Of a stretch of 37,660 nucleotides of DNA, positions 623 through 13,058 are shown one piece after another. The first letter of the stretch is position 1, and every line of letters begins with the position of its first letter. The notes beneath the pieces were generated by a model that had not been told where the DNA came from, made no database searches, and saw only the letters and a program-made list of their open reading frames with translations. Position numbers and translations under genes: made by a program. This DNA comes from Eubacteriales bacterium (GTDB lineage Bacteria > Bacillota > Clostridia > Lachnospirales > Lachnospiraceae), in contig JAUNFZ010000023.1 of assembly GCA_030524785.1 (NCBI GenBank), positions 1 through 37,660 of the forward strand, written 5' to 3'.

Positions 623-662
623 ACAGATAAAGTTAAAAAAATAAAGTTATGAATTTATCTGT
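623..662. promoter_or_regulatory. Inverted repeat overlapping the -35 box, possible operator
   Basis: ACAGATAAA (623-631) and TTTATCTGT (654-662) are perfect 9-nt inverted repeats about 31 nt centre to centre, in A/T-rich DNA. The right copy ends on the first base of the -35 box. Three-turn spacing suits a dimeric regulator; the Lrp/AsnC protein at the end of the operon is the obvious candidate, by inference only. Confidence 0.4.
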
Positions 663-690
663 TGACAGATGGAAAGCAGAAAGGTATAAT
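662..690 (+). promoter_or_regulatory. Consensus sigma-A promoter of the large operon
   Basis: TTGACA (662-667) and TATAAT (685-690) are both perfect consensus boxes with a 17-nt spacer, giving a start near 697. Such a strong promoter implies that control lies elsewhere, namely in the leader terminators and possibly the operator overlapping the -35 box. Confidence 0.9.
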
Positions 691-711
691 CCAGGATATC
701 AAGAGACGACG

Positions 712-745
712 AGGTTTCGGCAGAGTTCCTGCTGAGACCTTTTTT
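712..745 (+). terminator. Leader terminator 1
   Basis: A 12-bp stem pairs 712-723 with 729-740 (two G-U pairs, 5-nt loop) and runs into T740-T745. It is only about 15 nt from the predicted transcription start. Confidence 0.8.
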
Positions 746-857
746 CGTATCTGATATGTTTTCCGTATACCGCGCCGCAGTACGCAGGCGCATGGGAAGT
801 ATGGAAAACAGGTTTCCGGGAAATCAAAACTTCATATCCTAAGAAACAGAAACGACG

Positions 858-892
858 AGGTTTCGGCGGCAGTGATGCCCCGAAACCTTTTT
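858..892 (+). terminator. Leader terminator 2
   Basis: AGGTTTCGG (858-866) pairs with CCGAAACCT (880-888), extended by GGC/GCC across one bulge, and is followed by T888-T892. It shares its 5' arm with terminator 1. With both hairpins formed, little of the operon would be transcribed. Confidence 0.8.
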
Positions 893-1015
893 CTGGTTTT
901 TGGCTCTGTTTTCGTTACGAGTGACAGAGCGGGCAGTCACCAGATGCGTTTCCTATCTGGGATAAGGCGTGTATTCGGGAGAGGTTCCGAGCACAGGTAA
1001 GAGGAGGAAAAAATT

Positions 1016-2173
1016 ATGAAAAAGAAAGCAGCAAGTGTGATTCTGGCAATGTCTCTGGCGGCATCCATGTTCGCAGGGACAACGGCAATGGCGGAAGAAG
1101 ATAATGTGATCAAGATCGGTGTGATCTGCTCTATGACGGGCGGTTCCGCAGTGTACGGCGAAGGCGCGCAGAACGCAATCGACCTGGCAGTAGAAGAAAT
1201 CAATGGCAGCGATTCCGAATATAAAGTGGAGATTGTAAACGGCGGAAAGGTAGCGGATGATGCGACAGATGCAAAACAGGCGATCAACGCATACAACAGC
1301 GTGATGGCGGACGGACCGGAAGCGGTTGTAGGATGCTTCTTCTCATCCGTGACACTGCCAATCGCAGAGCAGGCGGCAAACGACGGCATGATCCTGCTGG
1401 CAACGGGCGCAACGAATAAAGACGTTACGTTAAAGGGAGATACGATCTTCCGTAACTGCTTCATCGATCCGTACCAGGGCAAAATGGCAGCGCAGTTTGC
1501 CAATGAGCAGGGCTGGACGAAAGCAGCGATCATTTATGCAAAAGACGATGATTATTCCAATGGTCTGAAGGATGCGTTTATTGAAAATGCAGAGGCAAAC
1601 GGAATTGAAGTAGTCTACACCGGCGAGTGTACGACAAAAGATACGGATTATTCCTCTCAGGCTTCCCAGGCAGTAGCAAGCGGGGCGGATTTCCTGTTCT
1701 ACCCGTGCTTCCTTGATACCGTACCGCTTCTGGTAAGCGCGGCAAGAGACGCAGGCTTCACTGGAGCAATTATGGGCGGCGATGGCTGGGACGGCGCAGA
1801 TACCTCAGGCATGGAAGATTATTTTGAAAACTGCTACTTCACAAACCACTATTCATCCGAGGATACGGCTCCGGCAGTTGCGAACTTTGTATCCAAATAC
1901 ACGGAAAAATATGGTTCAGAGAGCTTAAATGCCTGCGCAGCGCTCTACTATGATGCAATCTACATGATGGTTGAGGCAGCGAAGATCGGCGGCGGCTCCG
2001 ATACCGAGTCCCTGGTAAAAGGCATGACCGGCATGGAGTTCACAGGTGTAAATGGTAATATCAAGCTGGATGAGAACGGCGATGCAATCAAATCCGTGGC
2101 AATCAATCACTATGTAGACGGCGAAGTAAAATGGCTGGAAACCTTAAGCCCGGAAGGTGAAAAAACGGAGTAA
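1016..2173 (+). CDS. livK: ABC transporter substrate-binding protein, branched-chain amino acid type
   Basis: A 385-residue periplasmic-binding-protein type I fold of the LivK family. Residues 1-26 form a signal peptide ending AGTTAMA before EED; the mature protein opens with the typical IKIGVICSMTGG segment, followed by GEGAQNAIDLAVEEIN. The start is fixed by an AGGAGG site (1001-1006). Unusually for a Gram-positive binding protein there is no lipobox cysteine, so membrane anchoring is not explained. It is first gene of the operon and heads a complete LivHMGF set. The family binds Leu/Ile/Val but also amides, urea and other amino acids. The enzymes downstream suggest a D-amino acid, glutamate-derived or pyroglutamate-like ligand, which is inference; the symbol denotes family only. 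Confidence 0.85.
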   Translation: MKKKAASVILAMSLAASMFAGTTAMAEEDNVIKIGVICSMTGGSAVYGEGAQNAIDLAVEEINGSDSEYKVEIVNGGKVADDATDAKQAINAYNSVMADGPEAVVGCFFSSVTLPIAEQAANDGMILLATGATNKDVTLKGDTIFRNCFIDPYQGKMAAQFANEQGWTKAAIIYAKDDDYSNGLKDAFIENAEANGIEVVYTGECTTKDTDYSSQASQAVASGADFLFYPCFLDTVPLLVSAARDAGFTGAIMGGDGWDGADTSGMEDYFENCYFTNHYSSEDTAPAVANFVSKYTEKYGSESLNACAALYYDAIYMMVEAAKIGGGSDTESLVKGMTGMEFTGVNGNIKLDENGDAIKSVAINHYVDGEVKWLETLSPEGEKTE

Positions 2174-2197
2174 CAACAAAGAAGGACCTGATATGAC

Positions 2198-2234
2198 CGG
2201 ATGTGCACCTGGAAACACGCCAGGTGCACATCCG
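2198..2234 (+). other. Intercistronic 15-bp perfect hairpin
   Basis: CGGATGTGCACCTGG (2198-2212) and its exact complement (2220-2234) enclose a 7-nt loop between livK and livH. There is no proper T-run after it, so it is more likely an mRNA 3'-end stabiliser that favours binding-protein expression than a terminator. Confidence 0.7.
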
Positions 2235-2265
2235 TATTTCATAAAAACGCATAGGAGAAGCGGCT

Positions 2266-3156
2266 ATGACACTTTCTTTATTTATACAGAGCCTGATCAA
2301 TGGACTGAACCAGGGAGCAATCTATGCACTGATCGCCCTTGGCTACACCATGGTTTACGGCATTATTCGCATGATCAATTTCGCCCATGGCGATTTCATT
2401 ATGATTGGATCTTACACTTTATTTTACACAATCCCGGTGATGGTAAACATCGGGATGCCTGCATGGATGGCAGTAGCGATTGCAGTCGTGGTCTGCACCG
2501 TTGTCGGCATCCTGGTGGAGACGATTGCCTACAAGCCGGTCCGCAAGGCGGGGGCAATGTCCGCGCTGATCACGGCTCTGGCAATGAGTATTTTTCTGGA
2601 AAACCTGGCGATGGCATTGTTTGGCGCCAAGCCGCATAATGTACAGAAGATCTTTACGCTGCCGACCATTACGGTAGCAGGAGTGGCGCTGCCGTTAAAT
2701 GTGCTGCTGACAATCGGCATAGGCGTGGCGATGATGCTGCTGATGCAGATCTTTATCAAGAAGACAAAGATCGGAAAAGCAATGCGCGCTGTTCCGCAGG
2801 ATCGGGATGCGGCGATCCTCTCTGGGATCAACGTGGATAAGATTATTACGCTGACCTTTGCTATCGGCTCCGGGCTGGCGGCGATTGCAGCGCTGATGTA
2901 CTGTGCAAAGTATCCGCGTGTGACGAACGATATGGGTTCCATGATGGGCATTAAGGCATTTATCGCGGCAGTATTCGGCGGTATCGGCATTATCCCGGGC
3001 GCCATGCTTGGCGGTATCCTCGTCGGGCTGATCGAGATTTTTGTAAAACTGTATGCACCGGGATGGTACGAAGCGATCACCTACAGTATCCTGATTGTCA
3101 TCCTGCTGGTAAAACCGTCCGGTATTCTCGGTAAGAATGTCGGCGAGAAAGTCTGA
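2266..3156 (+). CDS. livH: Branched-chain amino acid type ABC permease (LivH family)
   Basis: A 296-residue integral membrane protein with about eight hydrophobic segments. The N-terminal ALIALGYTMVYGIIRMINFAHGD is characteristic of LivH, as is the GMLGGILVGLIEIF-like region near the C-terminus. A GGAGAAG ribosome site precedes the ATG. It pairs with LivM to form the translocation pore for the substrate delivered by the upstream binding protein. Its stop overlaps the first in-frame ATG of livM, but the better livM start lies 15 nt further on. Confidence 0.92.
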   Translation: MTLSLFIQSLINGLNQGAIYALIALGYTMVYGIIRMINFAHGDFIMIGSYTLFYTIPVMVNIGMPAWMAVAIAVVVCTVVGILVETIAYKPVRKAGAMSALITALAMSIFLENLAMALFGAKPHNVQKIFTLPTITVAGVALPLNVLLTIGIGVAMMLLMQIFIKKTKIGKAMRAVPQDRDAAILSGINVDKIITLTFAIGSGLAAIAALMYCAKYPRVTNDMGSMMGIKAFIAAVFGGIGIIPGAMLGGILVGLIEIFVKLYAPGWYEAITYSILIVILLVKPSGILGKNVGEKV

Positions 3157-3170
3157 TGGAGGAAAGCGAT

Positions 3171-4175
3171 ATGAAAATGCCGAAAAAATATAAACGTTCC
3201 TATCTGCTGAATTTTCTCGGACTGCTCCTTCTGTACGGGATTTTCGTGGCGATGTTTGAGTCGCAGATCTTCGGTACGTCCACGACGTATGTAAAGGGGA
3301 TCTTTACGACGGCCTGCTATACGATCGTGATGGTGACGTCCTTAAACCTGGTTGTGGGATGTATGGGTGAGTTTTCCTTAGGGCACGCGGGATTTGTGTC
3401 GGTAGGCGCCTACTTTTCCGCCATTACCTCCAATGCGCTGGTAGGAAAAGGGATTCCGGATCTGCTGATTCTGATCATTGCGCTGCTGGTGGGCGGGCTG
3501 GCGGCAGGCCTTACCGGCGTTCTGGTCGGTATCCCGGCGCTTCGCCTGCGCGGCGACTATCTGGCGATCGTGACGGTGGCGTTTGCGGAGATTATCCGCG
3601 TCTGCTTCTGTAATTTTGAATTTACCGGCGGCGGCAAGACGATGAGCGGCATTGCCAAGCTGGCGGATTTTTACTGGGCGTTCTGGATCATGGTGGTCTG
3701 TGTGACAATCATGTTCATGTATGTGAGAAGCCGTTACGGGCGCACGGTCAAGAGCATCCGAGAGGACTACATTGCAGCGGCGGCGTCCGGCATAAACGTT
3801 ACCTATTATAAGGTGCTGACGTTTGCGGTGGCAGCCTTTTTCGCCGGCGTGGGCGGCGGGCTCTACGCGCATTACATGACGGCGATGATCCCCACAAACT
3901 TTAACTTCAACTATTCGGCGGAGCTTCTTTCCGAAGTAATCATCGGCGGCACGGGTTCGCTGACTGGTTCCGTGATCGGCGCGGCGTTTTTGTCTTCCCT
4001 GCCGGAGCTGATGCGCCAGTTTTCTACATACCGTATGCTGGCATATTCCATTGTACTGGTGCTGGTTATGATCTTCCGTCCGGGCGGAATTTTCGGAACC
4101 TGGGAATTTTCGCTGACCAGGCTGCTTGAGAAATTTGACCGGCGCAGACCGCATGTACAGAAGGAGGGAGAATAG
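3171..4175 (+). CDS. livM: Branched-chain amino acid type ABC permease (LivM family)
   Basis: The second permease subunit, 334 residues from the chosen start, rich in membrane segments. LNLVVGCMGEFSLGHAGF and GIPALRLRGDYLAIVTVAFAEI are LivM signatures. An ATG at 3156 would add five residues, but GGAGG (3158-3162) sits inside that extension and 8 nt before ATG 3171, so the latter is preferred. The gene is followed after 2 nt by livG. It heterodimerises with LivH in the membrane. Confidence 0.92.
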   Translation: MKMPKKYKRSYLLNFLGLLLLYGIFVAMFESQIFGTSTTYVKGIFTTACYTIVMVTSLNLVVGCMGEFSLGHAGFVSVGAYFSAITSNALVGKGIPDLLILIIALLVGGLAAGLTGVLVGIPALRLRGDYLAIVTVAFAEIIRVCFCNFEFTGGGKTMSGIAKLADFYWAFWIMVVCVTIMFMYVRSRYGRTVKSIREDYIAAAASGINVTYYKVLTFAVAAFFAGVGGGLYAHYMTAMIPTNFNFNYSAELLSEVIIGGTGSLTGSVIGAAFLSSLPELMRQFSTYRMLAYSIVLVLVMIFRPGGIFGTWEFSLTRLLEKFDRRRPHVQKEGE

Positions 4176-4177
4176 CG

Positions 4178-4963
4178 ATGGCAGAGAAAAACAACACTCC
4201 CGTATTGAAAGCACAGAATCTTGGCATCCAGTTTGGCGGGTTAAAGGCAGTGGATGATTTTAATATGGAAATCGGGCAGTCTGAACTGGTCGGACTGATC
4301 GGGCCAAACGGCGCCGGGAAGACGACGGTGTTCAACCTGATTACCGGCGTGTATAAGCCGACGGAAGGTTCCTTTTATTTAAACGGAAAAAAGATGAACG
4401 GCAAAAAAACGCATCAGATCGTAGAGGCGGGGATCGCCAGGACGTTTCAGAATATCCGTCTGTTTAAGAAAATGACGGTGATCGACAACGTCAAGGCGGC
4501 GATGCAGGAGAAGACAACCTACAATATGGCGGATGCCGTATTCCGCACAAAGAAATACTGGGCGGAGGAAGCCGCACTTACAAAGCGGGCAAAGGAGCTG
4601 CTGGAGATCGTGCATTTGGCCGGGAAGGAAGAACTTCTGGCGGCAAACCTCCCTTACGGGCAGCAAAGAAGGCTTGAGATCGCCAGAGCGCTCGCCACAG
4701 ATATGAAGCTTTTGCTTCTTGACGAGCCGGCGGCGGGCATGAACCCGACGGAGACGGAGGAGCTTCTGGAGATCATCAATTTTATCCGGGATGAGTTTAA
4801 GATTTCCGTCCTTCTGATCGAACACGATATGAGCCTGGTTATGAAGATCTGCCAGAGGATCCAGGTGCTTGATTTTGGCACTACGATCGCTGCGGGCACA
4901 CCGCAGGAGATCGCGAGCAACCCGAAGGTAATCGAAGCGTACCTTGGCAAGGACGATGAGTAG
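4178..4963 (+). CDS. livG: ABC transporter ATP-binding protein (LivG family)
   Basis: A 261-residue ATPase of the transporter. It has Walker A GPNGAGKTT, a signature segment PYGQQRRLEIARALA (replacing LSGGQ, as usual in LivG), Walker B LLLLDEPAAGM and the H-loop IEHDMSLV. The LivG-specific insertion after the Q-loop (RTFQNIRLFKKMTVIDNV) is present. The ATG follows a GGAGGGAGAA site overlapping the livM stop region. It works as a heterodimer with LivF on the cytoplasmic face. Confidence 0.93.
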   Translation: MAEKNNTPVLKAQNLGIQFGGLKAVDDFNMEIGQSELVGLIGPNGAGKTTVFNLITGVYKPTEGSFYLNGKKMNGKKTHQIVEAGIARTFQNIRLFKKMTVIDNVKAAMQEKTTYNMADAVFRTKKYWAEEAALTKRAKELLEIVHLAGKEELLAANLPYGQQRRLEIARALATDMKLLLLDEPAAGMNPTETEELLEIINFIRDEFKISVLLIEHDMSLVMKICQRIQVLDFGTTIAAGTPQEIASNPKVIEAYLGKDDE

Positions 4964-4977
4964 GGGAGGGAAGGAAG

Positions 4978-5676
4978 ATGCTGGAGATAAAAGATCTGGA
5001 GGTATCTTATGGAGCAGTCCATGCGATCCATGGGGTATCGATAAAAGTAAACGACGGCGAGATCGTTTCCCTGATCGGGGCGAACGGCGCCGGGAAGACG
5101 ACGATTCTGCGCACGATATCGGGGCTTAAAAAGGCGGATTCCGGGGAGATCACCTTTGACGGGGCGGATCTTCGAAAAACCGAGCCGAGCAAGATCATCA
5201 GCCTGAAGCTTGCGCATGTGCCGGAAGGCAGGCATATTTTCCCGGATATGACAGTGGAAGAAAACCTGGAAATGGGCGCGTATGCGGACCCGAAGGATAT
5301 GGAAGAAACAATGCGGGATGTCTATGAAAGGTTTCCGCGCTTAAAGGAGCGGCACAGGCAGCTGGCGGGAACGCTCTCCGGAGGCGAGCAGCAGATGCTG
5401 GCGGTCGGCAGGGCACTGATGGCAAAGCCAAAGATGATCCTGATGGATGAGCCCTCCATGGGGCTGTCGCCGCTTTTGGTAAAAGAAATCTTTTCTATTA
5501 TAAAGGAAGTCAATAAAAAGGGCATTACGGTTCTTTTGGTGGAGCAGAACGCGAAAATGGCGCTGGCCATCTCCGACCGGGCATACGTGCTGGAGACCGG
5601 CAGAATCACGATCGAAGGGCGGGCGCAGGAACTCTTAAGCGATGAGCGTGTGAAAAAGGCTTACCTGGGGCAGTAG
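4978..5676 (+). CDS. livF: ABC transporter ATP-binding protein (LivF family)
   Basis: A 232-residue ATPase, the usual length for LivF. Walker A is GANGAGKTT, the ABC signature is LSGGEQQMLAVGRALM, Walker B is MILMDEPSMGLSP and the H-loop segment is LLVEQNAKMAL, all in LivF form. A GGAGGGAAGG site precedes the ATG. It completes the five-gene transporter; 31 nt separate it from the kinase-like gene, with no terminator, so the catabolic genes are transcribed from the same message. Confidence 0.93.
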   Translation: MLEIKDLEVSYGAVHAIHGVSIKVNDGEIVSLIGANGAGKTTILRTISGLKKADSGEITFDGADLRKTEPSKIISLKLAHVPEGRHIFPDMTVEENLEMGAYADPKDMEETMRDVYERFPRLKERHRQLAGTLSGGEQQMLAVGRALMAKPKMILMDEPSMGLSPLLVKEIFSIIKEVNKKGITVLLVEQNAKMALAISDRAYVLETGRITIEGRAQELLSDERVKKAYLGQ

Positions 5677-5707
5677 AAAATACCTGCGTAAAGAAAGGGG
5701 AACATTT

Positions 5708-6349
5708 ATGAGTGATTTTTTTGCGATTGCCATCACCCGGACGTGCGGCAGCGGCGGGGGAAGCTATATCGGGAAGAAGCTGGCGGCGGATTACAAGATT
5801 GATGTTTATGATCGTAAGCTTTTGCGGCTTGCTTCCGACAACAGCGGCATCAATGAGACGATTTTTGCAAATGCCGATGAAAATACGAAAAAGACGCTGC
5901 TTTACCGGGTTTCCAGAAAAATATATAACGGGCAGGCGATTCCGCCGGAGAGCGGCAATTTCCTCTCGGATCAGAATCTCTATAAATACCAGGCGGATGT
6001 GCTGCGCGCCCTGCTTGACCGGGAGTCCTACGTCTGCATCGGCAGGGCGGCGGATTATGTACTCAAAGACAAGAAAAATGTCTTAAGCGTCTACCTGGAT
6101 GCGCCGTATGACTGGCGGGTGGAGCGTGAGACAGAGCGCCAGGGTATCAGCGCCTTTGACGCGATCCGCTATATCAACCGGCTGGACAAATACCGCGAGG
6201 CGTACTATACCTACCATACCGGAAGGAAATGGAAGGATCCGACCAATTATGATCTGTGCCTGGATACGGCAAGTCTGGGGCTGGACGCCTGCGTTACGTT
6301 GATCGAGCATTATATGAATTTAAAATTCGGCATTGCAATGCCGGAATAA
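5708..6349 (+). CDS. Cytidylate kinase-like family protein, substrate unknown
   Basis: A 213-residue P-loop protein resembling the Cytidylate_kin_2 family common in Clostridia. The N-terminus AIAITRTCGSGGGSYIGKKLA carries the GxGGGxxGK nucleotide loop, followed by YDRKLLRLAS and, later, the CIGRAADYVLKD strand and a lid-like segment rich in arginine (RVERETERQGIS). These proteins are rarely characterised and the housekeeping CMP kinase is normally elsewhere. Its position between a transporter and amino-acid catabolic genes suggests a small-molecule kinase or regulatory role in the pathway, but nothing in the sequence identifies the substrate. GGGGAA precedes the ATG; the next gene starts 13 nt after its stop. 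Confidence 0.75.
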   Translation: MSDFFAIAITRTCGSGGGSYIGKKLAADYKIDVYDRKLLRLASDNSGINETIFANADENTKKTLLYRVSRKIYNGQAIPPESGNFLSDQNLYKYQADVLRALLDRESYVCIGRAADYVLKDKKNVLSVYLDAPYDWRVERETERQGISAFDAIRYINRLDKYREAYYTYHTGRKWKDPTNYDLCLDTASLGLDACVTLIEHYMNLKFGIAMPE

Positions 6350-6362
6350 GGGAGAAAAAGGC

Positions 6363-7226
6363 ATGTTAAAAGAACTGGCTTATTACGACGGCGTGTGGGG
6401 AGCGCCGGAAGAAGTGATGATCCCCTTTAATGACCGGGTACATTTTTTCGGAGACGGCGTGTACGATGCTACAGCGGGCGGAAACCATGTGGTGTATCTG
6501 CTTGATGAGCATCTGGATCGCTTTTACACCAGCGCGAAGGCGCTTGATATTAAAGTCCCGATGGAAAAGGAAGCGCTTGGAAAGCTGCTGACGGAAATGC
6601 TTGCAAAGGTAGAAGGCGAGACACATTTTGTATACTGGCAGGTGACCAGAGGGGCGGCAAGCCGCAACCATGTGTTTGACGAAGAAATGACCGGCAAGCT
6701 GTGGATCATGATCCGCCCGGCGGTATTAAATGACCCGGACAAACCGATCAAGCTGATGACGGCGGAGGATACGCGGTTTTACCACTGCAACATCAAGACG
6801 CTAAACCTGATCCCGTCCGTAATGGCGGCGCAGGCGGCAAAGCGCGCAGGCGTCAGTGAGACGGTTTTCCACCGCGACGGCATTGTGACGGAATGTGCGC
6901 ACAGCAACGTATGCATTTTAAAGGACGGCGTCTTTTACAGTCATCCGAACGACTGCCTGATCCTGCGGGGGATCGCCAAGACGCATCTGATCAAAGCGTG
7001 CTACAAGCTTGGCATCACCGTGATGGAACGTCCGTTTACGCTGGAGGAGCTGTTTGATGCGGATGAGATCATCGTCTCGTCTTCCTCCAACTTCTGCCTG
7101 CACGCAGAGAGTATCAACGGCATCAAGGCGGGCGGAAAAGATCCGGAGACATTAAAGAAAATTCAGGATGAGGTTATTTCGGAATACCTTGCATATACCG
7201 GGAAAGAGAGCCTGTTTGATGAATAA
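6363..7226 (+). CDS. dat: D-amino-acid transaminase (fold-type IV PLP enzyme)
   Basis: A 287-residue aminotransferase that would move the amino group of a D-amino acid to 2-oxoglutarate, giving D-glutamate. The catalytic lysine falls at residue 145 (NIKTLNLI), the same number as in the Bacillus enzyme. The R-x-H pair that binds the D-substrate carboxylate is present at R101-H103 (TRGAASRNH) and separates this family from branched-chain L-aminotransferases. GDGVYD, ILKDGVFYSHP and ILRGI also match. An upstream in-frame ATG at 6333 lies inside the previous gene; GGGAGAAAAAGG before 6363 fixes the start. Its stop overlaps the next gene by 8 nt. It links the imported compound to the D-glutamate cyclase-like proteins. 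Confidence 0.9.
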   Translation: MLKELAYYDGVWGAPEEVMIPFNDRVHFFGDGVYDATAGGNHVVYLLDEHLDRFYTSAKALDIKVPMEKEALGKLLTEMLAKVEGETHFVYWQVTRGAASRNHVFDEEMTGKLWIMIRPAVLNDPDKPIKLMTAEDTRFYHCNIKTLNLIPSVMAAQAAKRAGVSETVFHRDGIVTECAHSNVCILKDGVFYSHPNDCLILRGIAKTHLIKACYKLGITVMERPFTLEELFDADEIIVSSSSNFCLHAESINGIKAGGKDPETLKKIQDEVISEYLAYTGKESLFDE

Positions 7227-8289
7227 AGCGCAGCTGGAAAAAAGAAATATCGGGGAAAATCTGGACACGCTGATGACACTGGATCCGCGCGGCTACGGCG
7301 TATGCCGTATCCTCTACGGGGGCTGCCGCAAGATGGCGAAGGAGCCGCTGACGATCCATGCGGCGCAGGCACTGTGCGAAAACCTTACGGAGGGCGGCGT
7401 CGTATTTCTGATGACGGGATTTGTGCTGCTGCCCTATAAGGTGCCGGAGATGGACGGTATGGTGGGGACGATCCTTACCGCAAGGGCGCTGATCGAGGCG
7501 TTTCATGTCAAGCCGGTGGTGATCTGCCCGCCGGAATGTGTGCAGGCAGTCATAAACTGCGGGCATACTGCGGGCTACCAGGTTTATGAGGACATGGAAA
7601 TGGTAAAGGAAATGCCGCTTTGCATGGGCGTGATCCCCTTTACCAAGGACGAAAAAGAAGCGCCGCTGCAGGCGCAGAACATCTGTGAAACGATCATGCC
7701 TCAGGCGATGCTTGCCATCGAGGCGCCGGGGGCAAATTCGGTGGGCAAATATCACAATGCCGTCGGAAAGGACGTTACAGATTTAGAAGCAAAGACGGAT
7801 GTCCTGTGGAATCTTCTGCGGGACAAAAAGGTGCCAAGCATCGCCATCGGTGATCTGGGCAACGAGATCGGGATGCATTCCCTGGGAGAGCATATAGAGA
7901 AGTTTATCCCCTATACCTCAAAAAATGAATGTGCCTGCGGCTGCGGCGGCGGGATTTTGGCGGCGACGGATACGGATTATCTGATCACGGCGACCTGTTC
8001 GGACTGGGGCTGCTACGGGCTGATTGCGGCGGTGGCATTTTTGAAAAACAACATTGATATCTTCCATGACGAGGCGATGGAAGCGGCGGTGATGAGAGAG
8101 GCTTCCCGAAACGGCATGATCGACATGACGGGATCGCTGCTGCCGGGGATTGACGGCTTTGACCTGAAGATGAATACCGGGATCGTCAGCATGATGCGCC
8201 AGTGCACGGAATATGCGCTGCGCCATGAGGGAGAATTTAACCACTGGTACGGTCCGGTGCTGAAAAAAGGTTATTTTGACGGGGTGTAG
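7219..8289 (+). CDS. DUF4392 protein, D-glutamate cyclase C-terminal-half homologue
   Basis: A 356-residue cytoplasmic protein resembling the DUF4392 (GLUCM-like C-terminal) family. Visible features are GGVVFLMTGFVLLPYKVPEMDG, EAPGANSVGKYHNAVGKD, IAIGDLGNEIGMHSLGE and a Cys/Gly-rich loop CACGCGGGILAATDTDYL. In vertebrate D-glutamate cyclase this domain is fused behind a DUF1445 domain, which is encoded separately here by the gene at 10005. I infer that the two proteins work together on D-glutamate/5-oxo-D-proline. The start was moved from an upstream ATG (7168) to 7219, which has GGAAAGAGAG 8 nt ahead and overlaps the transaminase stop by 8 nt, implying coupled translation. Confidence 0.8.
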   Translation: MNKAQLEKRNIGENLDTLMTLDPRGYGVCRILYGGCRKMAKEPLTIHAAQALCENLTEGGVVFLMTGFVLLPYKVPEMDGMVGTILTARALIEAFHVKPVVICPPECVQAVINCGHTAGYQVYEDMEMVKEMPLCMGVIPFTKDEKEAPLQAQNICETIMPQAMLAIEAPGANSVGKYHNAVGKDVTDLEAKTDVLWNLLRDKKVPSIAIGDLGNEIGMHSLGEHIEKFIPYTSKNECACGCGGGILAATDTDYLITATCSDWGCYGLIAAVAFLKNNIDIFHDEAMEAAVMREASRNGMIDMTGSLLPGIDGFDLKMNTGIVSMMRQCTEYALRHEGEFNHWYGPVLKKGYFDGV

Positions 8290-8292
8290 AAC

Positions 8293-9018
8293 ATGGAATT
8301 ATCCGTAAAGCCTGTGGGAGATCAGGCGGTAATGGCGGTATTCGAACAGCGGATCGCAGAGGAGGTAAGCCGGGAAGTGATGGCGCTTGCGGATGCGCTG
8401 AAAACACTGGAGAATGAGGGCATCCGGGAGACGGTGCCGGCATTTGCCTCACTTTTGGTATATTATGATCCGCTGAAGCTGGATTACGGGACGCTGGAAC
8501 AAAAAATAAGGACGCTGGCGGGAAGGAACGGCAAAAAGGCCGGGACTGCCGGAAAAACGGTAAAGATCCCTGTCTGCTATGGCGGCAGATACGGGGAAGA
8601 TCTGAGGGATGTGGCGGAACATGCCAATCTGTCGGAAGAAGAAGTGGTACGTATCCACAGCGGGCGGGATTACCGCATCTATATGCTGGGATTTCTGCCG
8701 GGCTTCCCCTATCTTGGCGGGCTGGATGAGCGGCTGTTTACCCCGCGGCTTGAAAGTCCGCGCACCAGGATCCCGGCAGGAAGCGTCGGCATCGGCGGGA
8801 AACAGACGGGGATCTATCCGATGGCATCCCCGGGCGGCTGGCGGATCATCGGGCGCACACCGCTTACGCTCTTTGACCCGGGCGGAGCGGGAAAGCTGCC
8901 GTACCATGCCGGTGATGCGATCCGTTTTGTGCCCATCAGTGAGGCGGAATTTGAGCGGATGCGCAAAACGGCTGCAGAGGCGGACAGGGCGGACGAACAT
9001 TTGGAAGCATACGTTTGA
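8293..9018 (+). CDS. pxpB: 5-oxoprolinase subunit PxpB (KipI-like)
   Basis: A 241-residue member of the allophanate-hydrolase subunit 1 family. It shows the family opening VKPVGDQAVMAVFEQRI, the CYGGRYGEDL segment, and the core IYMLGFLPGFPYLGGL followed by PRTRIPAGSVGIGGKQTGIYP and GGWRIIGRTPLTLFDP. With PxpC and PxpA it forms the ATP-dependent prokaryotic 5-oxoprolinase that opens 5-oxoproline to glutamate. In Bacillus the orthologue (KipI) also inhibits the sporulation kinase KinA. It begins 3 nt after the DUF4392 stop, so the D-glutamate cyclase half and oxoprolinase are co-translated. Confidence 0.92.
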   Translation: MELSVKPVGDQAVMAVFEQRIAEEVSREVMALADALKTLENEGIRETVPAFASLLVYYDPLKLDYGTLEQKIRTLAGRNGKKAGTAGKTVKIPVCYGGRYGEDLRDVAEHANLSEEEVVRIHSGRDYRIYMLGFLPGFPYLGGLDERLFTPRLESPRTRIPAGSVGIGGKQTGIYPMASPGGWRIIGRTPLTLFDPGGAGKLPYHAGDAIRFVPISEAEFERMRKTAAEADRADEHLEAYV

Positions 9019-9036
9019 CAAACGGGAGGATGAAGG

Positions 9037-10035
9037 ATGGCACTGGAAATTCTGGCGGCGGGGCCGCTTGCGACGGTGCAGGATATGGGGCGCGAAGGGA
9101 TGGGGAGCCTTGGCTACCGCAGATGCGGCGCCGCCGATAAATATGCCATGCGCCTTGCCAATATCCTGGCGGGAAACATGAAGGCGGGAACGGATGTGCC
9201 GGAGAGGGCGGCGGCCATAGAGTTTACTTTAAGCGGCGGCAGGATTCGTTTTACGAAGGCGGGCAGGATCGCGCTTGCCGGGGCGGACATGTCGCCGAAG
9301 CTGGATGGAGAAGACATCCCCATGTATGCTTCCGTGCAGGTGCGCGCCGGGCAGATACTGGAACTGGGGTTTGCCGCCCGCGGGCTTCGCATGTATCTGG
9401 CAGTTGGCGGCGGCATCAATACAAAGCCTGTGCTTGGAAGCCGCTCCACGGATTGCGCCTGTGCGCTTGGCGGCGCAGACGGCAGGGCGCTGCGTGCGGG
9501 AGATATTTTAGAGACGGGCAAGTTCACAGAGCAAGTAGGAGCGTTTGCCCTGGGAGAAGATTACTTTTGGCTTAAGAGACCGTCCCATCCTTACCGCAGC
9601 GTAGGAGAACAACTGCTCCCGGTGCTGCGTGTGGTTGCCGGCCCGCAGGAGGAAGCGTTTACGGAAGAAGCAAAAGAGAACCTGCGGCGGGGCGTATATC
9701 AGGTGACGTCGGATTCTAACCGCATGGCGTGCAGGTTAAAAGGCCCTGCCCTTGCGGCAAAGGGTGGTTCTGACATCCTCTCAGACGGCATCGTGGAGGG
9801 CTCCATCCAGGTGGCGGCAAACGGTCTGCCGATGGTCATGCTCGCCGATCACCAGACGACTGGCGGCTATGCCAAGATCGGCACCGTTATCAGCACGGAC
9901 ATTCCGGCGATCGCACAGCGAAAGCCGGGAGAGTGCATCGGGTTTACTTATATCACCCCCAAAGAAGCAGGGGAAGCATACAGAAAAGAAGTGAGAAAAT
10001 TAGAATGGCTGAAACAAGAAATGATTACGCATTAG
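9037..10035 (+). CDS. pxpC: 5-oxoprolinase subunit PxpC (KipA-like)
   Basis: A 332-residue allophanate-hydrolase subunit 2 family protein (biotin-dependent carboxyltransferase family). The N-terminus has the diagnostic GPLATVQDMGREGMGSLGY and CGAADKYAMRLAN; LAVGGGINTKPVLGSRSTD lies mid-protein, and the C-terminal region contains SDGIVEGSIQVAANGLP and LADHQTTGGYAKIGTV. It pairs with PxpB as the phosphorylating part of 5-oxoprolinase. GGGAGGATGAAGG precedes the ATG. Its last 31 nt overlap the start of the YcsI-type gene in another frame. Confidence 0.92.
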   Translation: MALEILAAGPLATVQDMGREGMGSLGYRRCGAADKYAMRLANILAGNMKAGTDVPERAAAIEFTLSGGRIRFTKAGRIALAGADMSPKLDGEDIPMYASVQVRAGQILELGFAARGLRMYLAVGGGINTKPVLGSRSTDCACALGGADGRALRAGDILETGKFTEQVGAFALGEDYFWLKRPSHPYRSVGEQLLPVLRVVAGPQEEAFTEEAKENLRRGVYQVTSDSNRMACRLKGPALAAKGGSDILSDGIVEGSIQVAANGLPMVMLADHQTTGGYAKIGTVISTDIPAIAQRKPGECIGFTYITPKEAGEAYRKEVRKLEWLKQEMITH

Positions 10036-10814
10036 AAAGCCCGGGGCGTGTGCGCGCGCTGATACGGGAGGGAAAGATTGATTATCCGACCACCGGGATG
10101 TGCAGCGGATATGCGCAGGCAAACCTGGTGATGCTGCCAAAAGACCTGGCATGGGACTTCCTTTTGTTCTGTCAGAGAAACCCCAGATCCTGCCCGCTTC
10201 TGGAGGTGTCGGATGCGGGAAGCTATACCTTTCCTGTGTTTGGAGCGGGCTGCGATATCCGTACAGATGTCCCGCGCTACCGCGTCTATGAAAACGGCGT
10301 GCTGACAGGGGAATATACGGATGTAACGGCTATTGCACAGGACTGCGGTTATGAACTGGTCAGCTTTCTGATCGGCTGCAGTTTTTCCTTTGAATCTGAA
10401 CTGATCGAAGCCGGGATCCCCGTGCGCCAGATTGAGGAAGGCGTAAATGTGCCGATGTATAACACAAACATTCCCTGCGCGGGCGCGGGAGTATTTTCCG
10501 GGAACATGGTCGTCAGTATGCGCCCGATTCCGCACCGCCTGGTGCCGTCTGCTGTGACTGTGACGGCGGCGATGCCGCGCGTACACGGCGCGCCGATACA
10601 GATCGGCTATCCGGAAGCTATAGGTATTACGGATCTGTCCCATCCGGATTACGGCGATATGGTGACAATAAAAGAGGGTGAAGTGCCGGTATTCTGGCCC
10701 TGCGGGGTGACGCCCCAGGCGGTAGTGATGAATTCAAAACCGGTGTTTGCCATCACCCATGCACCGGGGCACATGTTTATTACGGATGTAAAGAACGTGC
10801 AGCTAAAATTATAA
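10005..10814 (+). CDS. YcsI/DUF1445 protein, D-glutamate cyclase N-terminal-half homologue
   Basis: A 269-residue protein of the D-Glu_cyclase (DUF1445, putative hydro-lyase) family. Recognisable segments are TTGMCSGYAQANLVMLP, FLLFCQRNPRSCPLLEV, FLIGCSFSFESELIEAGIP and the C-terminal VFWPCGVTPQAVV and THAPGHMFITD. In vertebrates the domain is fused to DUF4392 as D-glutamate cyclase, which interconverts D-glutamate and 5-oxo-D-proline; here the partner is the gene at 7219. B. subtilis ycsI likewise lies in the pxpA/kip cluster. The chosen ATG 10005 starts at the usual family distance before the conserved region and overlaps pxpC by 31 nt; its ribosome site is weak, so translation probably depends on pxpC. 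Confidence 0.85.
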   Translation: MAETRNDYALESPGRVRALIREGKIDYPTTGMCSGYAQANLVMLPKDLAWDFLLFCQRNPRSCPLLEVSDAGSYTFPVFGAGCDIRTDVPRYRVYENGVLTGEYTDVTAIAQDCGYELVSFLIGCSFSFESELIEAGIPVRQIEEGVNVPMYNTNIPCAGAGVFSGNMVVSMRPIPHRLVPSAVTVTAAMPRVHGAPIQIGYPEAIGITDLSHPDYGDMVTIKEGEVPVFWPCGVTPQAVVMNSKPVFAITHAPGHMFITDVKNVQLKL

Positions 10815-10850
10815 AAGGCGTAAAGATTCTGAAATAAAAGAGGGAAAATT

Positions 10851-11609
10851 ATGATTTCGATCGATTTGAACTGTGACCTTGGCGAGAGCTTCGGGGCATA
10901 TAAAATAGGAATGGATGAGCAGGTGGTGCCAAACATTACCTCAGCCAATATCGCCTGCGGTTTCCATGCCGGGGATCCACTGGTAATGAAAAAGACGGTT
11001 GCCCTGTGTAAGAAATATGGGGTAGGCATCGGCGCGCATCCGGGATACCCGGATCTTCGCGGCTTTGGCAGACGGAATATGAGCCTTCCGTATGCGGAGG
11101 TGGAGGCGGATATCATTTACCAGGTGGGTGCGCTGAAAGCTTTCTGCGACGGGGAGGGGGTGCCGCTTATCCATGTAAAACCGCACGGGGCTCTTTACAA
11201 TATGGCGGGAAAGGATTATGATCTTGCCATGGCGATCTGCCGCGGGATTCTGGCGGTGGATAAAAGTTTAAAAATTCTGGCATTAAGCGGCAGCGCTATG
11301 ATCCGGGCGGCACAGGAGATCGGAGTGCCTTCTGTCAGCGAGGTTTTTGCAGACCGCGCGTATCAGGCGGACGGATCCCTGGTTCCGAGATCACAGCCCG
11401 GCGCCATGATCACTGATGAAGATGAAGCTGTCAAAAGAGTGATCGATATGGCAAAGACGGGAACGGTGACGGCCATAGACGGAAGCGTGGTGGCGATCCG
11501 GGCGGATTCCGTCTGTGTCCACGGGGATGGTGAAAAAGCGCTGAAGTTTGTGGAAAAGATACACAAAGCGCTGCAGGATGCCGGAATAGAAGTGAGGAGT
11601 TTTTCATGA
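10851..11609 (+). CDS. pxpA: 5-oxoprolinase subunit PxpA (LamB/YcsF family)
   Basis: A 252-residue protein of standard family length. IDLNCDLGESFGAYKIG, NIACGFHAGDPLVM, GIGAHPGYPDLRGFGRR and IHVKPHGALYNMAG hold the conserved Asp/His residues of this amidohydrolase-like barrel, and FADRAYQADGSLVPRSQPGA follows. It carries the ring-opening activity of 5-oxoprolinase, producing glutamate in concert with PxpBC. AGAGGG lies ahead of the ATG. The stop overlaps the next gene by 4 nt (ATGA). Its location last among the enzymes fits a pathway ending in glutamate. Confidence 0.93.
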   Translation: MISIDLNCDLGESFGAYKIGMDEQVVPNITSANIACGFHAGDPLVMKKTVALCKKYGVGIGAHPGYPDLRGFGRRNMSLPYAEVEADIIYQVGALKAFCDGEGVPLIHVKPHGALYNMAGKDYDLAMAICRGILAVDKSLKILALSGSAMIRAAQEIGVPSVSEVFADRAYQADGSLVPRSQPGAMITDEDEAVKRVIDMAKTGTVTAIDGSVVAIRADSVCVHGDGEKALKFVEKIHKALQDAGIEVRSFS

Positions 11610-12505
11610 AAAAAGCGCTTGCCTATGGGATTTTAGGTTCCCTGTTTTTTGCATTTACCTTCGTATTTAACCGCAGCATGAACTTATCCGGCGGGTACTG
11701 GCTGTGGAGCGCCTGCCTGCGGTATTTCTTTACGCTGCCGCTGATGTGGCTTCTGGTAAAACGCCAGCGGGGAATGGCCCAGGTGATGGGAGAGATAAAG
11801 CAAAATCCCTTTTGCTGGATCTTATGGAGCACGGTCGGCTTCGGACTGTTTTATATGCCTCTTACCATGGCGTCTGTTTACGGCGAGTCGTGGTTTGTGG
11901 CGGCTACCTGGCAGATCACGATCGTTGCGGGGATTTTGTTGACGCCGCTCTTTGGAAAAAAGATTCCGGGTAAAAACCTTATCTGGTCCGGCGTAATCCT
12001 GGCAGGCATTTTTCTTCTGCAGGCGGCGCATCTGCGATTAATGCAGACGCAGGGAATGTTGCAGGCGTTCCTGCTGATTCTGGTCGCAGCATTTTCCTAC
12101 CCGCTTGGGAACCGTAAAATGATGTCACACTGTCCGCCGTCGATGACGACGGTGCAGCGCGTGTTTGGCATGACGCTGTGCAGCATGCCGTTTTGGATTC
12201 TGATGGCAGTGATCGCCGGGGCAAAAAGTGGAGCGCCGTCCGGCGGGCAGATGCTCCAGTCCTTTATCGTGGCGCTGTTTTCCGGCGTGATCGCGACGCT
12301 GCTGTTTTTTGAGGCGACGAACCTGACAAAGCATAATGCGAAGCAGCTGGCGGTGATCGAGGCCACCCAGTCCGGGGAGGTGATCTTCACACTGCTTGGC
12401 GGCATATTGTTTTTGGGAGATGCACTGCCGTCCGCAGTGGGATTTTTTGGAATCCTCCTGATCGTAGCGGGGATGGTCGGCAACAGCTTTGCCTCGGCAG
12501 GCTAA
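11606..12505 (+). CDS. EmrE/DMT-family transporter
   Basis: A 299-residue membrane protein of about ten hydrophobic helices arranged as two similar halves, as in the drug/metabolite transporter superfamily (multidrug-efflux EmrE-type family). Segments such as FVFNRSMNLSGGYWLWSACLRYFF and the C-terminal EATQSGEVIFTLLGGILFLGD match the family. It overlaps pxpA by 4 nt, so it belongs to the operon. Substrate is unknown; export of a by-product, or exchange of an amino or keto acid released by the transaminase, would fit. Drug efflux is not supported by context. Confidence 0.8.
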   Translation: MKKALAYGILGSLFFAFTFVFNRSMNLSGGYWLWSACLRYFFTLPLMWLLVKRQRGMAQVMGEIKQNPFCWILWSTVGFGLFYMPLTMASVYGESWFVAATWQITIVAGILLTPLFGKKIPGKNLIWSGVILAGIFLLQAAHLRLMQTQGMLQAFLLILVAAFSYPLGNRKMMSHCPPSMTTVQRVFGMTLCSMPFWILMAVIAGAKSGAPSGGQMLQSFIVALFSGVIATLLFFEATNLTKHNAKQLAVIEATQSGEVIFTLLGGILFLGDALPSAVGFFGILLIVAGMVGNSFASAG

Positions 12506-12521
12506 AGAGGGGAGAGAGTTT

Positions 12522-12992
12522 ATGCAGAAGAATACATTGGATGCGGTTGATAAAAAAATATTGAATATCCTGATGGTGGAAGCAAAGAGGCCTCTGAAAG
12601 AAATCGCAGAGGCTGTTTTTTTCTCTGTTCCAGCAGTCTCTGCGCGCATTGAAAAGCTGGAAAAGGAGGGATATATCAGGGGATATCAGGCGCAGGTCGA
12701 TCCGGTACTGACCGGATTTCCCGCGCGGGCATTTATCCAGGTCGCGGTCGCCCAGGAAGATAAGGAAGAATTTTACGCCTATGTGCAAGGCTGCCGGGAG
12801 GTCGCAGAATGTTGCTGCGTGACGGGAGAGTATTCCATGATGTTAAAGGTCTGCCTTCCGACCATGGAGGAACTTGAAAGCTTTGCGGGCAGGCTGGGGC
12901 GGTTTGGAAAAACGCAGACGCATGTTGTGTTCTCTGTCTCCGTACCGCACCGCGGTGTGGCGATCACTGAAGAATGTTCAAAAGGAATTTAA
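12522..12992 (+). CDS. Lrp/AsnC family transcriptional regulator
   Basis: A 156-residue regulator with an N-terminal winged helix (VDKKILNILMVEAKRPLKEI then FSVPAVSARIEKLEKEGYIRGY) and a C-terminal RAM ligand-binding domain (FIQVAV, CREVAECCCVTGEYSMML). The in-frame ATG at 12489 overlaps the exporter; GGGGAGAGAG before 12522 supports the later start. As last gene of the operon it is the likely ligand-sensing regulator of the promoter at 662-690, where the 9-nt inverted repeat overlaps the -35 box. The effector would be an amino acid, plausibly the transported substrate or glutamate; this is inference. Confidence 0.9.
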   Translation: MQKNTLDAVDKKILNILMVEAKRPLKEIAEAVFFSVPAVSARIEKLEKEGYIRGYQAQVDPVLTGFPARAFIQVAVAQEDKEEFYAYVQGCREVAECCCVTGEYSMMLKVCLPTMEELESFAGRLGRFGKTQTHVVFSVSVPHRGVAITEECSKGI

Positions 12993-12997
12993 AAATC

Positions 12998-13058
12998 GGG
13001 GTTACCGCTTCACGATTTTCTAATCAAATCGTTAAAGCGGCAGCCCCATATTTATTTT
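12998..13058 (+). terminator. Terminator of the transport/oxoprolinase operon
   Basis: GGGG...CGCTT...ACGATTT on the left pairs with AAATCGT...AAAGCG...CCCC on the right (12998-13047) around a short loop, then a T-rich tail TATTTATTTT. It begins 6 nt after the lrp stop and ends just where the next promoter starts. Confidence 0.8.

Follow-up and report, generated by a model that had tools for sequence, protein, structure and literature searches.

A Clostridia operon joins both D-glutamate cyclase domains to a DAT-like aminotransferase and PxpABC: a possible one-way route from D- to L-glutamate through 5-oxoproline

Results

Organization of the operon

The window analyzed here is a 37,660-nucleotide stretch of DNA from a Lachnospiraceae genome (Eubacteriales bacterium, assembly GCA_030524785.1, contig JAUNFZ010000023.1), which is a 2.75-Mb draft and 92% complete. 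Fourteen genes on the + strand (1016 to 12992) make up the unit of interest, and encode, from 5' to 3', the binding protein, two LIV-type permeases, and two LIV-type ATPases of an ATP-binding cassette (ABC) importer, a cytidylate-kinase-like protein, a D-amino-acid transaminase (DAT)-like protein, a DUF4392 protein, PxpB, PxpC, a DUF1445 protein, PxpA, an EmrE/EamA-type transporter, and an AsnC/Lrp-type regulator. An earlier note on this DNA had placed six of these proteins in tight order (the transaminase, DUF4392, PxpB, PxpC, DUF1445, and PxpA), and all six were found on the + strand, with Pfam matches and gene junctions that agree with this description:

6363..7226, + strand: D-amino-acid-transaminase-like class IV aminotransferase (Y34, R101, H103, K145, E177; PF01063, 141.1 bits)
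7219..8289, + strand: DUF4392 / GLUCM-like_C protein, candidate Mn-dependent D-glutamate cyclase (PF14336, 272.9 bits)
8293..9018, + strand: PxpB (PF02682, 261.2 bits; TIGR00370, 218.4 against a cut-off of 145.55)
9037..10035, + strand: PxpC (PF02626, 279.6 bits; TIGR00724, 280.1 against a cut-off of 230.2)
10005..10814, + strand: DUF1445 / D-Glu_cyclase / UPF0317 protein, candidate 5-oxoproline enzyme (PF07286, 231.7 bits; PRK05463, 400.5 against a cut-off of 324)
10851..11609, + strand: PxpA (PF03746, 351.8 bits; NF003814, 372.4 against a cut-off of 226)

From LivF onward, neighboring genes overlap by at most 31 nt or lie at most 36 nt apart. The DAT-like gene lies directly upstream of the DUF4392 gene and overlaps it by 8 nt, gaps of 3 and 18 nt separate DUF4392 from PxpB and PxpB from PxpC, PxpC overlaps DUF1445 by 31 nt, 36 nt lie between DUF1445 and PxpA, and PxpA overlaps the EamA-like gene by 4 nt. 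The span of the earlier note (5708-12992) does cover the downstream part of this unit, but its start is that of the cytidylate-kinase-like gene (PF13189) and not of the transaminase gene, and its end is the end of the AsnC/Lrp regulator gene, with the EmrE/EamA-type transporter gene located between PxpA and this regulator. The unit is also larger than the note said, since it opens upstream with the genes for the binding protein and LivHMGF-type subunits (1016-5676).

Conserved residues of the encoded proteins

D-amino-acid transaminases are recognized by an R-x-H carboxylate trap, a catalytic Lys, and a Tyr near position 31. The class IV protein of the window carries this motif: K145, R101, and H103 are located as the note had stated, and in an alignment these residues, together with Y34 and E177, match those of solved D-amino-acid aminotransferases (e.g., 3LQS and 3DAA). 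Family and residues thus agree with a D-amino-acid transaminase, but the scores are below the curated NCBI cut-offs (TIGR01121, 206.7 against 277.45; NF005209, 198.2 against 320; NF009066, 138.8 against 538), and therefore DAT-like is the safe name. PxpA, PxpB, and PxpC are encoded together and exceed the cut-offs of PF03746, TIGR00370, and TIGR00724, respectively, while PxpC scores 242 bits with the equivalog model NF045499, below its cut-off of 500.

The two domains of vertebrate D-glutamate cyclase (DGLUCY type) are both present above curated cut-offs (PF07286, 231.7 bits; PF14336, 272.9 bits), and they are encoded by two separate genes (10005-10814 and 7219-8289) instead of forming a single polypeptide. 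For DUF4392 we collected 107 homologues, of which 99 were kept by length and coverage. Six acidic residues (E77, D79, E168, D212, E216, and D312) are the counterparts of the metal ligands E59, D61, E115, D157, E161, and D246 of TON_0340, and all six are invariant in the 99 aligned homologues. The window protein also has a CxCxC segment (C238, C240, and C242; 7930-7944), present in 62 of the 99, which might be an extra metal site. In DUF1445, C125 and C233 are invariant in 92 aligned homologues, a cysteine pair reminiscent of cofactor-independent racemases. This protein matches two solved structures, 3DB9 and 2PIF, that are named only UPF0317, and its NCBI model is named 'putative hydro-lyase'.

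Comparison of the DUF4392 and DUF1445 profiles showed no resemblance between the two families. The sections available from PMC5339696 suggest a likeness of DUF4392 to Asp/Glu racemases. We rejected the possibility that either protein is such a racemase in disguise, as hhalign against the genome's own MurI, a single template sequence, gave probabilities of 0.2% for DUF4392 and 0.1% for DUF1445.

The gene set is conserved while its order changes

To follow the gene set, named genome contigs were scanned for DUF4392, and the best 80 of 529 relatives, near-copies included, were retained, a selection that favors close kin. With L013 and L014 added, 82 loci were counted; 65 of them share at least 41.5% identity with the window DUF4392, and 40 of these 65 are well flanked (1.5 kb upstream and 6.5 kb downstream). 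Genes on the same strand within 9 kb were considered near, and the counts rest on tblastn because gene calls in GC-rich loci were rough. Among the 40 well-flanked loci, all of the window-like clade, DUF4392 was found near DAT in 36, PxpB in 38, PxpC in 38, DUF1445 in 37, and PxpA in 36, and 34 of the 40 have all five partners. Around 17 more distant DUF4392 genes, DAT or Pxp genes were nearby in none and DUF1445 in 1.

The set also occurs on a divergent DUF4392 branch, in other arrangements: DAT-PxpA-PxpB-PxpC-DUF1445-DUF4392 in L152, DUF4392-DAT-PxpB-PxpC-DUF1445-PxpA in L153, and DAT-PxpB-PxpC-DUF1445-PxpA-DUF4392 in L154. L159 and L160 have DUF4392, DUF1445, and PxpABC with no nearby DAT match. 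A tree of 74 rows, made with a quick method (short-flank rows were left out and L149 was dropped by the program), rejects the rows with DAT plus Pxp as a single clade (approximately unbiased test, p 2.8e-60; the group was named after the tree was seen, and branches are long). We did not retain the idea that this forces two origins of the cassette, as the tree counts changes, gains and losses alike; the gene set was either assembled more than once or had one early origin followed by later losses. Among our results, this constancy of gene content under changing order speaks most strongly for a shared function. Altogether, these results support a functional link between DAT, both D-glutamate cyclase domains, and PxpABC, and the adjacency of these genes is not confined by chance to the lineage of the window, since 34 of the 40 loci and the divergent branch carry the set.

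Within the taxonomic order of the window, DUF4392 is present in 4 and DUF1445 in 7 of 196 genomes; three have both, each time approximately 2.2 kb apart. G093 and G193 conserve the gene series that starts with the binding protein and ends with PxpA, except that G193 has no match for the kinase-like gene. Across 398 genomes of the phylum, DUF4392 was detected over the cut-off in 42, DUF1445 in 64, and PxpA in 121 (two DUF4392 matches below the cut-off were dropped from the co-occurrence counts). DUF4392 and DUF1445 occur together in 31 of the 42 DUF4392 genomes (Fisher p 2e-19, kinship ignored); they are at most 5 kb apart in 17 genomes, and in nine only 57-83 bp separate their Pfam matches. 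In L145-L151, which belong to the divergent DUF4392 branch, DUF4392 directly follows DUF1445. In six of these seven tight stretches a pxp gene was not found nearby, and L145 has pxpABC approximately 11-13 kb upstream.

Two of the tight pairs, from one genus, have an amidohydrolase gene (PF07969) upstream (L146, 5657-7228; L147, 1659-3230), which we read as D-aminoacylase-like. Elsewhere, in L081 (9959-15949) and L095 (9291-15214), a distant DUF4392 gene is followed by genes for an octopine-dehydrogenase-family protein and a MutL/GlmL-domain protein of 1225-1227 aa (neighbors identified by family check in L081 and by gene order and blastp cluster in L095). This context hints at another glutamate-related use of DUF4392. 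Finally, an alanine racemase gene is located directly 3' of DUF4392 in L058, L069, and L097, where DAT and pxp genes were not found nearby (family checked for L058 and L097).

DUF1445 follows PxpA, with or without DUF4392

PxpA is present in 63 of the 64 DUF1445 genomes of the phylum. DUF1445 and PxpA occur without DUF4392 in 33 of the 64, and in 28 of these 33 the two genes are at most 5 kb apart. DUF1445 is therefore independent of DUF4392 and most simply acts on 5-oxoproline. Each of the two families occurs without the other, and we discarded the view that they are mere halves of one enzyme. The note had called the pair a split D-glutamate cyclase: both domains are indeed present, but DUF1445 is not simply one half. 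Most simply, DUF1445 follows 5-oxoproline opening and DUF4392 provides the link to D-glutamate, because DUF4392 is tied to DAT.

Some clusters free of DUF4392 (L016 and L018) have an Nramp-type gene directly 5' of PxpA. Available sections of two sources are at odds on the relatives of this protein, which are described as 5-oxoproline uptake proteins in PMC13274462 and as manganese importers in PMC10448178. Both roles fit the context, one as uptake of the lactam, for which the LIV system could stand in, the other as supply of metal to a Mn enzyme.

Alanine racemase, MurI, and the direction of DAT

The operon was described in the note as working without a glutamate racemase. The window's genome does encode MurI (274.7 bits), and its single alanine racemase gene is carried by a different contig. 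Of the 40 well-flanked loci, 18 have such a gene near the cassette (17 full-length matches and one 22% fragment, in L086; the family was checked on three examples), and 16 of the 18 lack a nearby LIV permease on the same strand. LivH is near DUF4392 in 14 of the 40.

We searched 25 genomes with the cassette or DUF4392 for both racemases. Over-cut-off alanine racemase was found in 25/25 and over-cut-off MurI in 13/25. All 12 genomes without MurI are among the 15 that have no LIV genes near the cassette, 13 of which have an alanine racemase nearby; this group was drawn after the result was seen, and its genomes are related and mostly metagenome drafts. Their records are named Oscillospiraceae, Ruminococcaceae, Eubacterium, Clostridiales, or just Clostridia. 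MurI is present in each of the remaining ten genomes, five of which (L041, L042, L045, L086, and L097) also have a nearby alanine racemase match. According to the available part of PMC9963018, both murI and dat are deleted in a Staphylococcus strain auxotrophic for D-glutamate, which indicates that DAT can supply D-glutamate beside MurI. With MurI missing in 12 of the 15 LIV-free genomes, DAT probably runs towards D-glutamate in that group and makes the D-glutamate of the wall. This fits these genomes better than the direction proposed in the note, in which DAT served D-amino-acid catabolism.

As a general rule, an association of DUF4392 with MurI loss was not retained: over-cut-off MurI is lacking in 12 of 41 DUF4392-positive genomes, in 5 of the 33 that have DUF1445 alone, and in 34 of the 279 genomes of a phylum sample. 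The 42 DUF4392-positive genomes, window genome included, differ from the DUF4392-free part of the sample (Fisher p 0.007), and within the sample alone the figures are 5/27 with DUF4392 and 29/252 without (Fisher p 0.35; four further genomes that gave no match may shift them by one or two). The wider association is thus weak, while that of the LIV-free set (12 of 15) is strong.

The importer, flanking genes, and regulatory features

The remaining genes and the candidate regulatory elements of the unit are:

662..690, + strand: promoter-like site TTGACA-17-TATAAT 5' of the unit (12/12 consensus matches; consensus match only)
691..1015, + strand: structured leader containing a 20-nt direct repeat in two copies (702-721 and 848-867; 95% identical; fold z -8.28)
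1016..2173, + strand: substrate-binding protein of a LIV-type ABC importer (PF13458, 167.9 bits)
2266..3156, + strand: LivH-type permease (PF02653, 140 bits; best NCBIfam model LivH, below cut-off)
3156..4175, + strand: LivM-type permease (PF02653, 128.6 bits; best NCBIfam model LivM, below cut-off)
4178..4963, + strand: LivG-type ATPase (PF00005 and PF12399; LivG model, 303.3 bits against a cut-off of 362)
4978..5676, + strand: LivF-type ATPase (PF00005; LivF model, 278.2 bits against a cut-off of 441)
5708..6349, + strand: cytidylate-kinase-like protein (PF13189, 161.9 bits)
11606..12505, + strand: EmrE/EamA-type transporter (PF13536, 322.9 bits)
12522..12992, + strand: AsnC/Lrp-type regulator (PF13412 and PF01037)
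12998..13047, + strand: candidate terminator of the unit, formed by a hairpin and the T-rich stretch after it (fold -25.7 kcal/mol, z -5.90)

The unit encodes the components of a LIV-type importer (one binding protein and a pair each of permeases and ATPases), for which the NCBIfam Liv models are the best matches although under their cut-offs. The solved proteins closest to the binding protein are amino-acid binders, annotated as branched-chain or general types; the imported D-amino acid of the note was a guess. The cytidylate-kinase-like gene is near DUF4392 in 12 of the 40 well-flanked loci, where it travels with the LIV importer; in L042 and L045 it is found inside a divergent importer operon. 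The EmrE/EamA gene is near DUF4392 in just 1 of the 40.

The site at 662-690 ranked first among 22 promoter-like sites detected between 300 and 13200 by the consensus scan (mean of shuffled sequences, 10.7), a scan whose sites do not include the hairpin at 12998-13047. The leader is far more stable than shuffled sequences, and each of its repeats heads one terminator-like hairpin. Similar leader units lie 5' of the binding protein gene in related loci, and because approximately 10 of 14 aligned leaders, judged by eye, show two such repeat-hairpin units, the leader looks like a conserved attenuator. An Rfam scan of the leader gave no family at gathering score and no known riboswitch. Upstream of the unit, the opposite strand carries a glycine riboswitch (427-504, 57.3 bits) and a Clostridiales-1 RNA (81-297, 106.7 bits). 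Downstream, 3' of the candidate terminator, lies a gene of the sodium:alanine symporter family (PF01235; 13116-14516), relatives of which are also near the cassettes of L041, L079, and L153.

Discussion

The mammalian protein with DUF1445 and DUF4392 domains converts D-glutamate to 5-oxo-D-proline, and glutamate racemase activity was not found in it (available sections of PMC5339696). That both domains belong to one animal D-glutamate cyclase, as the note held, is thus in print for the mammalian protein. PxpABC, in turn, is documented in the accessible text of PMC13274462 for 5-oxo-L-proline. The note had D-glutamate cyclized and reopened to glutamate; the functional link between DAT, the two cyclase domains, and PxpABC holds, but since the cyclase product is the D-lactam and PxpABC is described for the L-lactam, this chain misses an inversion.

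We tentatively read the operon as a one-way route from D- to L-glutamate through 5-oxoproline, a proposal for which we infer every enzymatic step, the inversion, and the imported substrate from the genes. DAT would interconvert D-glutamate and other D-amino acids by transamination. At its two-metal acidic site, DUF4392 would convert D-glutamate to 5-oxo-D-proline, the thermodynamically favored direction. DUF1445 would act on 5-oxoproline and feed PxpABC, in the simplest case through inversion of 5-oxo-D-proline to 5-oxo-L-proline, and PxpABC would open the latter to L-glutamate with ATP, a consumption that would make the whole route one-way. In window-type genomes the ABC importer would bring the substrate from outside, with MurI still making the D-glutamate of the wall. 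In the LIV-free group, most cassettes close with alanine racemase and most genomes are without MurI; there, the D-glutamate of the wall is probably a product of DAT, and the rest of the cassette would return the surplus. A bolder version appears doubtful to us: DUF1445 would be a cofactor-independent 5-oxoproline racemase working through its cysteine pair and would form the one-way route with DUF4392 and PxpABC, and DAT together with alanine racemase would have allowed one Clostridia group to lose MurI, a glutamate racemase that cells normally need.

Several observations weigh against this route. MurI is present in the window's genome and in 29 of the 41 other DUF4392-positive genomes, and it could run from D to L without ATP. 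Four genomes have DUF4392 and PxpA without DUF1445, seven have DUF4392 with neither partner, and L051 is without DUF1445 and PxpA; in L058 and L069, alanine racemase accompanies DUF4392 and the surroundings are free of DAT and pxp genes. Among 18 searched genomes with a nearby alanine racemase, 11 are without MurI and 7 keep it, so that one trait does not always imply the other. The inverting role of DUF1445 is a hypothesis built on two invariant cysteines and on co-occurrence; the open-licence literature that we searched names no racemase or epimerase of 5-oxoproline or pyroglutamate. Moreover, humans excrete 5-oxo-D-proline, as stated in the available text of PMC5339696, an observation that speaks against a racemase function for the DUF1445 domain of mammals.

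The view of the note, by which imported D-amino acids aminate 2-oxoglutarate and the resulting D-glutamate is drained via 5-oxoproline to L-glutamate, would account for DAT in 36 of the 40 cassettes and for the amino-acid-type importer that heads window-type units, and cyclization followed by ATP-driven opening would pull the transamination. It needs the same inversion step, however, and LIV genes are lacking near most cassettes (LivH in 14 of 40), while alanine racemase near 18 of 40 and the missing MurI of 12 of the 15 LIV-free genomes point to a role of DAT in making D-glutamate for the wall in that group. We consider it unlikely. We see just as little probability in the use of racemic 5-oxoproline, in which both enantiomers would be imported, PxpABC would open the L form, DUF4392 and DUF1445 would open the D form to D-glutamate, and DAT would deaminate it. 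DUF1445 with PxpA in 63 of 64 genomes fits this idea, as does the Nramp-type gene before PxpA in L016 and L018 if its relatives import 5-oxoproline and not manganese, a role that LIV could hold in the window; DAT with alanine racemase would then drain D-glutamate to 2-oxoglutarate and L-alanine. Against it, opening without ATP is uphill (the L-glutamate/5-oxoproline equilibrium is about 0.035 in the accessible part of PMC13274462, a value for the L pair), and the binding protein resembles general amino-acid binders.

Less probable still is metabolite repair, in which D- and L-glutamate cyclize spontaneously and the cassette would salvage the two lactams for further use. 5-Oxoproline does form spontaneously and accumulates in pxp mutants of Bacillus subtilis (cited in PMC13274462, available text), and the frequent combination of DUF1445 and PxpA without DUF4392 (33 of 64 genomes) also fits, yet repair leaves a cyclase-type protein, DAT, and an importer in one unit unexplained. 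The D-to-L route is the reading we prefer. If true, it would offer cells a second means of keeping D- and L-glutamate in balance, could account for genomes in which MurI is not recognizable, and would bear on what each domain of the vertebrate enzyme does. The bacterial roles of the DUF1445 and DUF4392 families are not settled, and the gene contexts described here divide the labor between them and predict the enantiomer that each handles.

Comparison with known systems

Among the open-licence papers listed by our searches, none was seen to describe the DAT-DUF4392-PxpBC-DUF1445-PxpA set. In the B. subtilis genome, included as a control, DUF1445 is present and DUF4392 absent. We take YcsI of B. 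subtilis to be its DUF1445 protein, and we know of no DAT in the ycsF-ycsG-ycsI-kipI-kipA operon. This operon resembles the window unit in combining the pxpABC genes with ycsI (PMC10448178, available sections) and has an Nramp-type transporter where the window unit has LIV. The 5-oxoprolinase of C. glutamicum, as presented in the accessible text of PMC13274462, shares PxpA, PxpB, and PxpC with the window, where they lie in one unit intermixed with DUF4392, DUF1445, and DAT, and with an ABC importer instead of PxpT/YcsG. TON_0340 (4FC5, 5GKX, and 5GL2-4) has all six acidic metal ligands conserved in the window DUF4392; it differs in having no CxCxC segment and is reported, in the part of PMC5132392 available, as a Mn-dependent phosphatase of low activity.

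The closest likeness in domain content is to the mammalian D-glutamate cyclase (9030617O03Rik / DGLUCY), which has both the DUF1445 and the DUF4392 domain (PMC5339696, available sections). The mammalian enzyme is one mitochondrial polypeptide, whereas the window has two genes, split by pxpB and pxpC, in one unit with DAT and PxpABC. Neighboring genes that cover the two-domain protein also characterize the gut microbial homologues of human GLUCM, 6 of them split and 0 full-length; the accessible part of that table entry mentions no DAT or 5-oxoprolinase beside them (PMC11580864). With split GLUCM homologues already tabulated there, we file the gene set of the window as a variant of known 5-oxoproline and D-glutamate metabolism.

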